From NCBI GenBank assembly GCA_945609985.1, contig CALYZQ010000001.1:1-64000 (forward strand): a stretch of DNA of 64,000 nucleotides, read 5' to 3'. This DNA comes from an uncultured Lachnospiraceae bacterium (GTDB lineage: Bacteria > Bacillota > Clostridia > Lachnospirales > Lachnospiraceae). The notes beneath the pieces are model-generated. The model made no database searches, was not told the DNA's origin, and was given only the letters and a program-made list of their open reading frames with translations. Position numbers and translations under genes: made by a program. Shown piece by piece: positions 8,966 to 46,471 of this stretch (within the stretch, counting starts at the first letter, position 1; each line of letters opens with the position of its first letter).

Positions 8966-9134
8966 AACGTGCAGGGGAAGAGATACCATAACACAAGCAG
9001 TGCAATGTGAGCACGCCGGCACTTAGCGAGGTATGATGCGCAATACATTGCGCATTCGAGCTTAGTACCGCTGCGATGCGAACCTTAGCGAGAGCGTGCC
9101 TGCGGTGGTTATGGTATCTCTTCCCCTACACGTT
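8966..9134 (-). repeat. long intergenic quasi-palindromic element, copy A
   Basis: 27-bp outer arms with one mismatch (AACGTGCAGGGGAAGAGATACCATAAC / GTTATGGTATCTCTTCCCCTACACGTT) plus conserved core shared with 14934-15127 and 44326-44531 (minus orientation). Confidence 0.9.
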
Positions 9135-9146
9135 ATTTTTCATTAC

Positions 9147-9178
9147 AAAAAAGAGGCTGCATACCGTGCAACCTCTTT
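9147..9178 (-). terminator. intrinsic terminator of pnp
   Basis: minus strand AGAGGTTGCACGGTATGCAGCCTCTTTTTTG. Confidence 0.85.
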
Positions 9179-9193
9179 CATCTTCATATATTA

Positions 9194-11284
9194 TTACTGC
9201 TGTGCTACATCCTTCATGGAGAAGCTCATTCTGCCCATCTTATCCTTGCCTAAGCAAACAACGGTAACCTTGTCACCTAATGTCAGAACATCTTCTACAT
9301 GGTTGATTCTTTCCTTAGCAATCTTGGAAATGTGTACCATTCCCTCCTTACCGGGAGCGAACTCAACGAATGCACCGAATTCCTTAATGCTTACTACCTT
9401 GCCCTTGAAAATCTGACCTTCTTCAAAGTCTGTAGTAATAATCTTAATCATCTCAACAGCCTTGTCCATCATTTCCTTATCGGTACCGCATACTGATACA
9501 TTACCGTCATCAGTGATATCAATCTTAACGCCGGTACGTGCAATAATCTCATTGATGGTCTTACCACGCTGTCCCACAACATCACCAATCTTCTCAGGAT
9601 CAATCTGGATGGAGATAATCTTGGGAGCGTACTCGCCAACCTCAGGTCTGGGAGCTGCAATTGCAGGCTTCATACAGTTGTCCATAATGAACATTCTAGC
9701 TTCACGACATCTTGCAATAGCACCTTCAACGATAGGTCTGGTCAAACCGTGAATCTTAATATCCATCTGAATAGCGGTAATACCCTTGGTAGTACCGGTT
9801 ACCTTAAAGTCCATATCTCCGAAGAAGTCCTCGAGACCCTGAATATCGGTAAGGAGTACGAAATCTTCGTCTGCATCACCGGTTACCAGACCACAGGAAA
9901 TACCTGCTACCATAGCCTTGATAGGAACACCTGCAGCCATCAGGGACATACAGGATGCACAGGTAGATGCCATGGAGGTAGAACCGTTGGACTCAAAGGT
10001 CTCGGATACGGTACGGATTGCATAAGGGAATTCCTCTTCGCTGGGAAGTACGGGAATCAATGCTCTCTCTGCAAGTGCACCATGACCGATTTCACGTCTT
10101 CCGGGTCCTCTGGAGGGCTTTGTCTCACCTACAGAGTAGGAAGGGAAGTTGTAATGATGCATATATCTCTTACTTACTTCGTTCTCATCCAAACCGTCAA
10201 TCTTCTGCTGCTCGGACAAAGGAGCCAAAGTACATACGTTACAAATCTGAGTCTGACCACGGGTAAACATAGCAGAGCCATGTACGCGGGGAATCAAATC
10301 AACCTCTGCTGCAAGAGGACGAATCTGATCGATAGCACGGCCATCAGGACGCTTGTGATCCTTCAAAATCATCTTGCGCACAGTCTTCTTCTCATACTGG
10401 TATACAGCTTCACCTAAGATTGCAAGCCATTCTTCCTTTTCAGCAAATGCCTCTTCCAGCTTTGCGGTGATCTGACGGATATTCTCCTCACGGGTCTGCT
10501 TGTCATCAGTAAATACTGCTTCCTCCATCTGCTCGGGAGTAACGATAGCTTTCATCTCCTCAAACATCTCAGCAGGAATAGCGCAGCTTGTATACTCATG
10601 CTTCGGCTTGCCAACCTCAGCAACAATCTGCTCAATAAATGCAATGATTGTCTGGTTGATTTCATGAGCCTTATAAATAGCCTCAATCATCTTATCCTCA
10701 GGCACTTCGTTAGCACCTGCCTCAATCATGATAACCTTCTCCTTGGTAGAAGCTACGGTCAGATTCAAATCACCGTTCTTCCACTGCTCCTGGGAAGGGT
10801 TCACAATGAACTCGCCATCGATAAGTCCCATCTGAGTCATAGCACAGGGACCATCAAAAGGAATGTCTGAAATGCAGGTTGCAATTGCGGAACCAATCAT
10901 AGCAACGATCTCGGGACGGCATGCAGGATCCACGCTCATTACCATATTGTTCAGGGTAACATCATTGCGGTAATCCTTGGGGAACAAGGGACGCATAGGT
11001 CTGTCAATTACACGGCTGGTAAGAATTGCATTCTCACTTGCCTTACCCTCTCTTTTGTTAAAGCCTCCGGGAATCTTACCTACCGCATATAACTTCTCCT
11101 CATACTCAACGCTCAAAGGGAAAAAGTCGATACCGTCTCTGGGCTTCTCAGAAGCGGTTGCAGTACAAAGTACTGTAGTGTCGCCATAGTGCATAAATGC
11201 ACAACCGTTTGCCTGCTTACCCACACGATTGATATCAACGCTTAAGGTACGGCCTGCAAGGTCCATTTTGTAAGTCTGATACAT
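9194..11284 (-). CDS. pnp: polyribonucleotide nucleotidyltransferase
   Basis: Full-length PNPase with KH (VVGQRGKTINEIIARTGVKIDI) and S1 (GKVVSIKEFGAFVEFAPGKEGMVHIS) domains. Confidence 0.98.
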   Translation of the reverse strand: MYQTYKMDLAGRTLSVDINRVGKQANGCAFMHYGDTTVLCTATASEKPRDGIDFFPLSVEYEEKLYAVGKIPGGFNKREGKASENAILTSRVIDRPMRPLFPKDYRNDVTLNNMVMSVDPACRPEIVAMIGSAIATCISDIPFDGPCAMTQMGLIDGEFIVNPSQEQWKNGDLNLTVASTKEKVIMIEAGANEVPEDKMIEAIYKAHEINQTIIAFIEQIVAEVGKPKHEYTSCAIPAEMFEEMKAIVTPEQMEEAVFTDDKQTREENIRQITAKLEEAFAEKEEWLAILGEAVYQYEKKTVRKMILKDHKRPDGRAIDQIRPLAAEVDLIPRVHGSAMFTRGQTQICNVCTLAPLSEQQKIDGLDENEVSKRYMHHYNFPSYSVGETKPSRGPGRREIGHGALAERALIPVLPSEEEFPYAIRTVSETFESNGSTSMASTCASCMSLMAAGVPIKAMVAGISCGLVTGDADEDFVLLTDIQGLEDFFGDMDFKVTGTTKGITAIQMDIKIHGLTRPIVEGAIARCREARMFIMDNCMKPAIAAPRPEVGEYAPKIISIQIDPEKIGDVVGQRGKTINEIIARTGVKIDITDDGNVSVCGTDKEMMDKAVEMIKIITTDFEEGQIFKGKVVSIKEFGAFVEFAPGKEGMVHISKIAKERINHVEDVLTLGDKVTVVCLGKDKMGRMSFSMKDVAQQ

Positions 11285-11330
11285 AATATCCTCCATTCCA
11301 CCGTTTATACGGTTACTATTTATTTGGTAA

Positions 11331-14933: not shown

Positions 14934-15127
14934 GCGTGAAGGGAAGGGAGCAGGGCAGGGCGGGGATACCATGACACCGCAGGCACGCTTCCGCTAAAGT
15001 TCGCAACGCAACGGTACTAAGCTCGCTTAATTGCATCTTACGACGCAATTACCTCGCTAAGGACCGGCGTGCTCACATTGCGCTGCTTGTGTCATGGTAT
15101 CCCCTCCCTGCCCTGCTCCCTTCACGT
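14934..15127 (+). repeat. long intergenic quasi-palindromic element, copy B
   Basis: outer arms GCGTGAAGGGAAGGGAGCAGGGCAGGGCGGGGATACCATGACAC / GTGTCATGGTATCCCCTCCCTGCCCTGCTCCCTTCACGT; conserved core shared with copies A and C. Confidence 0.92.
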
Positions 15128-22765: not shown

Positions 22766-25660
22766 CTATCTTGGTACCTCCACCATGATATAAGCCTCTA
22801 CAATATCAAGCTCCTGCATCTGGTCAAAGCCTTCAAATACAAGACCGCACTCGAAGCCTGCCTTTACTTCCTTTACATCGTCCTTGAAACGCTTTAAGGA
22901 TGCCAGCTGTCCTTCAAATATCTGGTCGCCCTCACGGGTAATGCGAACCTTACAGCCTCTCTGGAATACGCCGTCAAGCACATAGGAACCTGCAATGTTT
23001 CCGATAGCGGATGCCTTGAAAATCTGACGTACCTCTGCATGACCGATAACCTTTTCCTCGAATACGGGATCCAGCATACCCTTCATAGCAGCCTCGATAT
23101 CTTCAATTGCCTGATAGATAACTCTGTACAGTCTCACATCCACGCCTTCACGCTCTGCAGTAGCCTTTGCAGTTACATCAGGTCTTACATTGAAACCAAT
23201 GATAATTGCATTGGATGCACTTGCCAGAGTAACATCGGACTCGTTGATGGCACCTACGCCGCCGTGAATACACTTAACGACTACTTCATCATTGGAAAGT
23301 CTGAGCAGGGACTGCTTAACAGCCTCTACACTACCCTGAACATCGGCCTTGACAATCAGGTTAAGCTCCTTCAAATTACCTTCCTTAATCTGGGAGAACA
23401 AATCATCCAAGGACATCTTAGACTTGGTCTCTTCCAGCATCTTCTCTTTATTTTGTGCAAGATAAGTCTCTGCAAAGTTCTTTGCAGTCTTGTCATTGTC
23501 ATGAGCAATAAATACTTCACCTGCACTGGGCACATCGGATAATCCCAAAATCTCTACGGGAGTAGAAGGACCTGCTTCCTTTACTCTTCTGCCCTTATCA
23601 TCCACCATAGCTCTTACCTTACCATGGCATGCACCTGCTGAAATAAAGTCTCCCACATGCAGTATACCCTTCTGTACCAGTACGGTTGCCACAGGGCCGC
23701 GTCCCTTATCAAGCTCAGCCTCAATAACAAGACCTCTTGCACGTCTCTTGGGATTTGCCTTAAGCTCCAGAATATCTGCGGAAAGCAGAATCATCTCCAA
23801 AAGCTCTTCAATACCGTCTCCTGTCTTTGCGGAAACCGGTGCAAACACAGTACTTCCGCCCCAATCCTCGGGAATCAGCTCATACTCAGAAAGCTCCTGC
23901 TTTACACGGTCAATGTTTGCAGAGGGCTTATCAATCTTGTTTACTGCTACGATAATTTCAATGCCTGCTGCCTTAGCATGGTTAATTGCCTCAATGGTCT
24001 GGGGCATAACACCGTCATCTGCAGCAACTACCAAAATTGCGATATCGGTTGCATTTGCACCACGCATACGCATAGCGGTAAATGCTTCATGTCCGGGTGT
24101 ATCTAAGAAGGTAATCTTTCTGTCTCCCACATTTACAGTATACGCACCGATGTGCTGTGTAATACCGCCTGCCTCCTTATCGGTGACATTGGTCTTACGG
24201 ATAGCATCCAGAAGGGATGTTTTACCATGGTCAACGTGACCCATTACGCAGATAATGGGAGGTCTCTCTACAAGATTCTCCTCTGCTTCCTCATCCTCTT
24301 TAAGAAGCTCTTCAATCACGTCAACCTTAACTTCCTTCTCACACAGAATCTCGTATTCCATAGCGATATTCTCTGCATCCTCATAGGAAATCTCCTGGTT
24401 AACGGTTACAATCTTGCCTTCCATAAACAGCTTCTTTACAATAGCGGAAGGCTGTATCTTCATCTTATCAGCCAAATCCTTGATAGTGATGGTCTCCGGA
24501 AGTACAATAACCTTGATAACCTCCTCAACTACCTCTTCCTTCTTCTTTTCAGGCTTGATGAATCTGCCGGGCTTGTTCTTTAAATTCTCGTCCTCTTCAT
24601 ACATCAAGTCCTTTTTGTTGCGCTTATCCTTCTCTTGGCTTAAACGTCTCTTGTCTTCACCGCTCTTCTTTTCAATATCCTTAACGGGCGCAGCATCTCC
24701 GCCAAAATTCTTGGAGGCTTTGTTGTCTCTGTCTCTGAACTGACCGCCTCTGTTATCTCTGCCGTCTCTGCCATCACGTCCATCCTTACCGTCACGTCCG
24801 CCGCCGTTAAAGCCACGTCCGCTGCCTGCATTATTACCGAAACGACGGTCTGATTGACCTCCTTCAAAGCCGGGTCTTGCAGGTCTGTTGTTAAAGCCTC
24901 CCTGTCTGTCTCCCTGAGGTCTGTCTCCCTGGGGACGATTACCCTGAGGTCTGTCGCCCCTGTTTGCATTCTGACCAAAGCCGGGACGGTTTCCTCTGTC
25001 TCCCTGAGGGCGCTCACCCTGGGGTCTGTCTCCCTGAGGACGGTTACCCTGCTGACGATTGTCAATGCGATTGTCTCTTCCGGGTCTTGCCTGTGCCTGA
25101 CCGTTCTGTGACCTGGTCTGCTGTTCTTTCTGTACCTGTTCTGTCTGTACCTTCTCCACCTGTTCAGGTGCCTCCTGAACGGGACGCTTCGGTTGCTGCT
25201 TCTGCGTATCAGGAACCATCTGTACACTGGGTGTAGGGGAAGGAGGTGTCAAAGGCTTAATAGGACGCACCGGCGCCTGTGCCTGCGGTCTGTTGCCGTT
25301 CATTCCACCTTGGGGACGCTTCTGCTGTCCCTGTCCCTGAGGGCGCTGCTGATTATTGCCGGAGTGCTGACCGGGCATTTTAGAGTTCTGGGGGTTACTT
25401 ACGAAGATAATTTTCTTTTTCTTCTTGGGTGCCTCCTCAGAAGCCTCCTCCTTAACGGGCTCAGCTGCCTTCTTTTCCGGAGCAGGAGCAGGCTTTTCTT
25501 CCTTCTTCCCGAAAGCCTTTCTGGTCATCTGCGCAGCATCCTCCTCAACAGAGCTCTGTGCAGCCTTTGCCTCTATTCCTTTCTCCTGTAAAAAGCTCAA
25601 TATATCTTTACTTTGCATTCCTAATTCTTTTGCGAGTTCATGTACCTTTATTTTCGCCAT
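22766..25660 (-). CDS. infB: translation initiation factor IF-2
   Basis: IF2_[35 protein letters not shown]1, [14 protein letters not shown]; start ATG at 25660. Confidence 0.97.
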
Positions 25661-25691
25661 GCTTTCCTCCATTTCTGCCTCCTGCGGCATC

Positions 25692-26030
25692 TTACCTGTT
25701 TTCCAGTTGTGTGATAATTGCATTTGCCAAGCCTTCATCGCACACACCTACCGAAGACCGCAGGTCCTTTCCGATTGCCCGACCCAAATCTTCCTTTGTT
25801 CCATATTCATATACCGGAATCTCATAAAAAGAACATTTATTGTGAAACAGCTTTTTGGTATTGTCCGAAGCATCCTCCGCTATGATGACTACCATTACAT
25901 CACCGCATTTTACGGCTTCAATCGTCTGAAACTCACCACTTACCAGATTTTTGCCTCTCATCGCCAATCCCAATAATGCCAATACTTTACTGCGCTTCAA
26001 TTGTGTCAAACTCCTTTTCCAACTCCTCAT
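25692..26030 (-). CDS. L7Ae-family RNA-binding protein (YlxQ-like)
   Basis: [43 protein letters not shown]; overlaps ylxR. Confidence 0.85.
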
Positions 26031-33638: not shown

Positions 33639-33881
33639 GTGGATGGCGGAAGCCAGCGGGGAGACTTTTTCGTTCGTTGTGAAGGATGGTTGCATTTTCA
33701 AGCATTGTGCGAAGTGATACAGGGGAAATCAGCTCATGGATGAGCGATTTAGGCGCGCTCGCACAGGGATGTGTCTTGCGCGCCGACCCGTAAGATACGA
33801 AATCCATTCCGCAATGCTTAGAAAATACCCATCCGCAACTCCGAATCGAAAAAGTCTCCCCCGCTGGCTCCCGCTATCCAC
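33639..33881. repeat. giant intergenic quasi-palindrome (about 75-nt arms), copy D, distinct sequence
   Basis: GTGGATGGCGGAAGCCAGCGGGGAGACTTTTTCG..GGATGGTTGCATTTTCAAGCATTG pairs with CAATGCTTAGAAAATACCCATCC..CGAAAAAGTCTCCCCCGCTGGCTCCCGCTATCCAC. Confidence 0.9.
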
Positions 33882-44290: not shown

Positions 44291-44325
44291 ATAGCTCTTA
44301 CACGATTGTGTAGGAGCTGTTTTAT
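44291..44325 (+). terminator. intrinsic terminator of the cNMP-domain gene
   Basis: AGCTCTTACACGATTGTGTAGGAGCTGTTTTATG. Confidence 0.75.
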
Positions 44326-44531
44326 GTTGCGGGACGTAAGAGGGACATAGGAGGATACCATGACAGCCGCAGGCACGCTCCCGCTATGGCAGATACGCAG
44401 TGTGTGTTAAGGAGAATTGCGAAGCGATTCTCTCAGAATCGTCGCTGCTGAGCGACGATTTAGGACCGGCGTGCTCAGAATGCGCTGCTTGTGTCATGGT
44501 ATCCTCCTCTGCCCCTCTTACTTCCCACAAC
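44326..44531 (+). repeat. long intergenic quasi-palindromic element, copy C
   Basis: arms GTTGCGGGACGTAAGAGGGACATAGGAGGATACCATGACA / TGTCATGGTATCCTCCTCTGCCCCTCTTACTTCCCACAAC; conserved core shared with copies A and B. Confidence 0.9.
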
Positions 44532-44538
44532 ACAAAAC

Positions 44539-44570
44539 AGCCCACAGACTCTCAACGAATCTGTGGGCTT
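44539..44570 (-). terminator. intrinsic terminator of the OFA transporter gene
   Basis: AGCCCACAGACTCTCAACGAATCTGTGGGCTT. Confidence 0.8.
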
Positions 44571-46400: not shown

Positions 46401-46471
46401 AGGGGAATAGTACAGCGGTAGTGCGGCGGTCTCCAAAACCGTTAACGGGGGTTCGATTCCCTCTTCCCCTG
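46401..46471 (+). tRNA. tRNA-Trp (anticodon CCA)
   Basis: AGGGGAA..TTCCCCT acceptor stem, anticodon loop CTCCAAA, T-arm GGTTCGATTCC, no encoded CCA. Confidence 0.95.

Follow-up and report, generated by a model that had tools for sequence, protein, structure and literature searches.

Dispersed palindromes of Lachnospiraceae combine a conserved RNA core with locus-specific arms

Several described systems produce short palindromic repeats in bacterial chromosomes. Miniature inverted-repeat transposable elements (MITEs; e.g. RUP, BOX, ERIC and Correia) are short, dispersed, palindromic, intergenic and gene-free, have terminal repeats that do not vary from copy to copy and are usually accompanied by a target-site duplication. 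Integron attC sites keep their structure while their sequence varies. Repetitive extragenic palindromes (REPs) and bacterial interspersed mosaic elements, together with the REP-associated tyrosine transposase (RAYT), are palindromic repeats at gene 3' ends, often between convergent genes, with a length of 20-40 bp and a conserved stem (PMC3733652). Inverted-repeat template switching homogenises the arms of a repeat and inverts its spacer (PMC8604942), and template switching also makes and maintains hairpins (PMC8794818), as described for short repeats with small spacers. Furthermore, the TwoAYGGAY RNA (RF01731) was presented in 2010 as a probable RNA that is probably not cis-regulatory (PMC2864571); it was later put forward as a CsrA-binding small RNA (sRNA), a Clostridia structured RNA with tandem G.A pairs in its stem and an outer stem that is not well conserved (PMC4333381). 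Here, we examine a family of long intergenic palindromes found in a 64,000-nucleotide stretch of an uncultured Lachnospiraceae bacterium (contig CALYZQ010000001.1, positions 1 to 64,000; hereafter the window), in which a conserved RNA-like core sits inside complementary arms that differ from copy to copy.

The element shares the general build of MITEs, but its ends differ in each copy. It resembles REPs in its palindromic form and its place at gene 3' ends, often between convergent genes, yet differs from them in size and in its variable arms, and most of the carrier genomes tested here are without RAYT. With template-switched quasipalindromes it has homogenised arms and an inverted spacer in common, whereas its arms of 35-60 bp, its conserved 110-nt RNA core and its many loci set it apart. 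No integron context turned up here, no search for an integrase having been made. The literature searched, mostly outside subscription papers, gives no earlier description of the family. The family is real and widespread, its RNA core and the dichotomy between core and arms are well supported, and its mode of spread is what we infer.

The window belongs to a draft genome (G000; 2.48 Mb, 133 contigs) of Lachnospiraceae near Acetatifactor, whose polynucleotide phosphorylase (PNPase) is 94% identical to the PNPase of 'Lachnospiraceae bacterium RGIG5081'. Its neighbour G060 has 94% DNA identity to it over the 7 kb compared. Draft assemblies underlie all comparisons, and both genomes have many contig ends inside the repeats. 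A preliminary description of the window had recognised three palindromes, A, B and C, and each is confirmed in its place, with a folding energy far beyond that of shuffled sequences (z = -9.2, -10.1 and -11.4, respectively; 0/200 shuffles reach each). The intergenic family proposed there is real, although its three copies are part of a set of about 40 in G000. The features of the three window copies, with the RNA-like strand, are as follows.

8966..9134, + strand: copy A, whole palindrome, with arms at 8966-8992 and 9108-9134
9002..9098, + strand: structured-RNA core of copy A, matched by covariance model R1 at 69.4 bits
9017..9070, + strand: helix P3 of copy A, with a U.U mismatch and tandem G.A pairs (5' strand 9017-9030, 3' strand 9057-9070)
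9088..9095, + strand: small hairpin GC-GAGA-GC of copy A (GNRA tetraloop)
14934..15127, - strand: copy B, whole palindrome, with arms at about 14943-14977 and 15089-15123
14984..15081, - strand: structured-RNA core of copy B, matched by model R1 at 65.7 bits
44326..44531, - strand: copy C, whole palindrome, with paired arms extending to about 44316-44372 and 44485-44541
44377-44384, - strand: GNRA hairpin of copy C, the outer core being likewise kept

Copy A, in which P3 is capped by a variable hairpin, P4, has the opposite orientation to copies B and C. A common core had been reported for all three; it is indeed shared, but copy C has a variant interior and only its outer core in common with A and B. 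Two other hairpins replace that interior, so that P3 with its U.U and G.A pairs is missing, and the covariance model gives no match to this copy.

Alignment of copies from many Lachnospiraceae, read on the strand opposite to that of the preliminary description, shows a core conserved on one strand as a predicted structured RNA, composed of a helix with U.U and tandem sheared-type G.A pairs, a cap hairpin and a GNRA side hairpin. On this reverse strand, 111/117 copies close the 8-nt side hairpin with a GNRA loop, of which six versions occur (GAAA 33, GGAA 25, GAGA 24, GGGA 22, GCAA 5 and GCGA 2), whereas none of the 117 forward-strand loops matches GNRA. In the main helix, the U.U mismatch is invariant (44/44) and the tandem G.A pairs are kept in 41/44 and 43/44 sequences, while other pairs exchange exactly between C-G and U-A (22:22 and 32:11), G-C and A-U (33:11) and A-U and G-C (39:5). 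The GNRA and tandem G.A results reject the originally noted strand as the RNA strand. Over the 17 core pairs, 94.8% of cells pair, compared with 15-37% in slid controls; 11 of the 17 change on both sides, in 69 cells versus 18.6 after shuffling, and 0/500 shuffles reach the covariation score. The covariation asked for in a multi-copy alignment is present, and the suggestion of a non-coding RNA fits the core, where covariation maintains the structure, although on the other strand. Mismatches in the cap hairpin, read in RNA orientation, comprise 28 G.U and 5 A.C, many of them from related copies. Rfam 15 contains no family above its gathering score for the A/B/C element; the only match, below that threshold, is to the long-hairpin family MIR1437, at 39 of 168 bits. 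Individual copies show further variation on this plan. For example, an Agathobacter copy (L081, 10142-10278) has a compensated main helix, CGTTACTTAACG / GGTTAGTAACG, and another (L045, 2217-2339) has an additional hairpin, formed by repetition of adjacent sequence, inserted in its GNRA side hairpin.

The arms obey rules different from those of the core, and the idea that a single structure evolves here under a single constraint finds no support. The core, about 85-110 nt long, is near-identical in most G000 copies, whereas the arms, 35-50 bp in length, pair within their own copy and are mostly unrelated to those of other copies, as the preliminary description had seen in its three examples. 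Elsewhere in Lachnospiraceae, near-perfect pairing extends over ~60 bp (L271, L292). Pairwise comparison of outer arms with shuffled arms gives a slight excess of similarity, partly from common T-runs, and the sole strong match joins two halves of one element at contig ends. In this genus, though not in other Lachnospiraceae, G and A prevail in the 5' arm; the purine bias noted in A, B and C is real, but in a palindrome it is strand-symmetric and gives no direction. As inverted repeats specific to their locus, the outer arms lie mostly between convergent genes and beside terminators. Among 34 assignable copies, 19 lie between convergent, 14 between tandem and one between divergent genes, and at the tandem genes the RNA strand runs with the genes seven times and against them seven times, so its direction does not consistently follow that of the gene beside it. 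A terminator T-run or A-run adjoins one or both sides in 37/40 copies, and no open reading frame (ORF) accounts for the repeats. Copy A has the following neighbour:

9152..9177, - strand: intrinsic-terminator-like hairpin belonging to the PNPase gene (9194-11296, - strand), directly upstream of copy A

A copy with quite different arms lies just 3' of PNPase in an uncultured Acetatifactor (L034, about 10267-10388), as copy A does, and may be orthologous to site A with diverged arms.

Comparison of G000 with G060 reveals how arms and cores change at fixed sites. Between these two related species, the core is flipped, or swapped for another core type, inside retained arms. Of 20 orthologous sites, nine have the core inverted and 11 have it oriented alike in both genomes, the calls at L003 and L112 resting on one flank each owing to contig ends. 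Site A is near-identical in arms and core in both genomes, and site C also agrees; at site B, G060 has the same arms around an inverted C-type core that is 129/141 identical to window copy C, and at L021 the core has been replaced. Moreover, both arms have changed between the genomes at L022, L024, L111 and L114. Among ~600 arm pairs compared, 63 show a change on a single side, and in 11 both sides differ such that one Watson-Crick pair has become another, where independent changes would give about one double change, as estimated from the single-change rate. Several mismatches at L114 have changed as complements (AA to TT, AC to GT), indicating that the arms themselves were inverted. Selection on an RNA predicts G.U mismatches far above A.C, a test that is blind if both strands are transcribed. 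In the arms of 70 copies from the two genomes, 128 G.U and 104 A.C mismatches occur in RNA orientation, an excess that is not significant, and RNA selection on the arms was rejected on this result. Coordinated changes of the two arms and inverted spacers, as seen at sites common to both genomes, are those expected of template switching. Repeated palindrome correction, one of the options raised earlier, seems to describe the arms: changes are concerted on the two sides, the core inverts and G.U is not in significant excess.

The family is abundant within Lachnospiraceae. In G000, copy B finds 44 BLAST matches across the whole genome, a few of them halves or self-matches of one palindrome, and model R1 finds 41; G060 likewise has about 40 copies. 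The covariance-model search proposed in the preliminary description also extends to related genomes, with the R1 core present in 33/80 Lachnospiraceae genomes and, in some, at least 54 matches per genome. G116 holds at least 103 copies at E<=1e-12 among the 150 scored of 1222 first-look candidates. A class-wide scan with R1 matches 5/196 genomes, all of them Lachnospiraceae (5/6 of that family), and none of the ~190 genomes of other families of the class carries the core. Spread by phages or plasmids was not supported, since viral contigs contain no exact-pattern match to the element and plasmids and phages no blastn match to one copy. In closely spaced pairs of cores, the two RNA strands almost invariably point apart (L272, L290, L296; L269, L279, L353, L354; and contigs C180 and C66 of G116). 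In G146 (L272, L290, L296), such a pair with a ~250-bp spacer forms a repeated composite whose inner arms are common to the copies, while two tandem cores in G138 (L357) are an exception to the outward-facing arrangement. No autonomous element was apparent between paired cores; the spacers inspected contain ribF, other ordinary genes or non-coding DNA.

Two findings support dispersal as a mobile palindrome, also proposed earlier: the number of copies, and sites at which related species are not alike. One clean empty site is available (L028/L219), where G060 reads TTTTTTATT joined directly to ATAACTAC and G000 carries a complete element, its two arms included. This single site has no visible target-site duplication, and its empty allele contains neither arm, which led us to reject an inverted target duplication, with one arm native and the other copied. 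Several mismatches in the arms of the filled allele suggest that the insertion is old. Arms are also subject to decay, as three short-hairpin alleles show: they are internal deletions that keep one-sided pieces of the element, two of the three with visible 2-4 bp microhomology. The outcomes that the preliminary description had named as counting against it were checked and did not appear, there being no Rfam match, no identical ends and, at the one clean empty site, no target-site duplication. As for candidate mobilisers, the Y1 transposase (RAYT) has no match in G060, G195, G279, G138, G206, G331 or G387 and is represented in G000 only by a 24-residue fragment, and several carriers have no IS110 transposase, as several have no reverse transcriptase; all three were rejected as universal mobilisers.

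A second RNA family has the same habit, and one of its copies forms another palindrome in the window, the fourth with this anatomy:

33639..33881, + strand: TwoAYGGAY RNA (RF01731, 33677-33841, + strand) in its own G-rich complementary arms

This is the sole window match of the RF01731 covariance model, which does not match the A/B/C cores. Across G000 and G060, TwoAYGGAY occurs in 12 copies, this one included, inside private, mostly G-rich arms; among the 12, the window copy and L166 are one site in two genomes. Such private arms agree with the poorly conserved TwoAYGGAY outer stem (PMC4333381). The two RNAs share tandem G.A pairs, private complementary arms and loci in this genus, but the new core has another sequence and fold, no AYGGAY loops and no Rfam match. 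On contig C135 of G060, the new element occupies a site at which G000 has TwoAYGGAY within the same outermost arm sequence. Moreover, the arms around TwoAYGGAY at L300 retain an inner arm of the new family (GGGATACCATAG/CATGGTATCCC), and the nesting is the other way round at L027, with a copy of the new element inside a TwoAYGGAY stem. These arrangements suggest that TwoAYGGAY is a component of a mobile element.

Elsewhere in the window, Rfam matches comprise a T-box leader (RF00230; 2464-2704) and a tRNA gene (46401-46471), and degenerate 15-bp tandem repeats (TCTGTCTCCCTGAGG) occupy 24905-25079 inside a long ORF (22766-25747, - strand).

Taken as a whole, the copies are probably a dispersed, non-autonomous and mobile two-layer element of Lachnospiraceae. 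Arm complementarity and core flipping would arise by replication template switching or by recombination between the two arms, of which template switching fits the inversions and the behaviour of the arms best. Core exchange may proceed by ectopic conversion or by fresh insertion into an existing palindrome. Under arm correction combined with core flipping and exchange, arms would drift until unique to their site while cores stay alike. Spread would be selfish, helped in trans by a putative protein of the host or of a mobile element, for which the RNA fold or the hairpin form of the element is a likely handle, and the element may be tolerated because it lands at gene 3' ends. TwoAYGGAY RNA would behave likewise in this genus. 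Several points weigh against this explanation. One P3 pair is C.A in 20/44 sequences, a feature that speaks against a simple RNA helix except in the case of a protonated A.C pair, and C-type cores, which have no P3 motif, nevertheless occur at several sites, so that the RNA fold is perhaps not needed for exchange. Template switching leaves the 5'-arm purine bias of this genus unaccounted for, and the empty allele at L028, with neither arms nor target-site duplication, leaves the origin of the arms unexplained. Transposition itself is something we infer from copy number and a single clean presence/absence site, and some of the flips or swaps could be errors of draft assembly.

Carried to its extreme, this last point would make the whole pattern an artefact of short-read assembly, in which cores are joined to the wrong arms in the wrong orientation. 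Draft assemblies with several copies at contig ends lend themselves to such errors, but misassembly yields neither perfect private arms nor shared flanks, sites A and C are concordant in both genomes and relatives with private arms appear in many independent assemblies, making an artefact very improbable. A selected function for the host is easier to entertain, though still improbable: the whole hairpin, arms included, would be a beneficial non-coding RNA, such as a protein-binding sRNA or a 3'-end stabiliser, with arms that drift freely while pairing lasts. Strong core covariation, long stable hairpins at gene 3' ends and the proposed CsrA binding of TwoAYGGAY (PMC4333381) are all compatible with it, whereas the arms are without a significant G.U excess (the test being blind if both strands are transcribed), core orientation varies between species and relative to neighbouring genes, copy number runs from 0 to >100 within one family, and copies are lost through internal deletion. 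No evidence points to the related suggestion of a double-stranded RNA 3' end or RNA-processing signal. We give slightly less weight again to a common MITE, or a repeat of REP type, that stems from a known family of insertion sequences and has decayed terminal repeats; a short, palindromic, intergenic, high-copy element with no ORF invites this comparison, as does the G146 composite, with common inner arms and two cores facing apart around a ~250-bp spacer, but G000 copies differ in their outer ends, the clean site shows no target-site duplication, and none of RAYT, IS110 transposase and reverse transcriptase is common to all carriers, several being without each.

The strongest competitor, itself rather unlikely, places insertion of the element at the tip of pre-existing hairpins, whether terminators or palindromes of other families; the private outer arms would be the stem of the target, naturally complementary but different at each site, and nested insertions would build long arms. 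The exchange of TwoAYGGAY for the new element within the same outermost arms, the nestings at L300 and L027 and the adjacency of most copies to terminators all speak for such insertion. However, no bare joined hairpin was found at empty sites, where the three short-hairpin alleles are internal deletions and the one clean empty site is without arms. A dispersed two-layer element with corrected arms and movable cores remains our preferred explanation. As a more speculative proposal, RNA-cored hairpins of both families might move from palindrome to palindrome, inserting, displacing and nesting at common loci; if so, the chromosome would bear permanent palindromes into which RNA cassettes can be exchanged, and mobility would take a form in which a hairpin is the target and a structured RNA module the mobile part.

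The family adds to a major gut family of bacteria a high-copy structured RNA that is absent from Rfam, and its anatomy has a bearing on known RNAs as well, since the arrangement of TwoAYGGAY touches on the function of that Rfam family. Moreover, a single element separates two causes of covariation that are usually conflated, the core pointing to selection on RNA and the arms to correction of palindromes at the level of DNA, and a simple comparison of G.U with A.C mismatches tells them apart. Dozens of natural loci are at hand at which the correction of arms and the flipping and exchange of cores can be measured.
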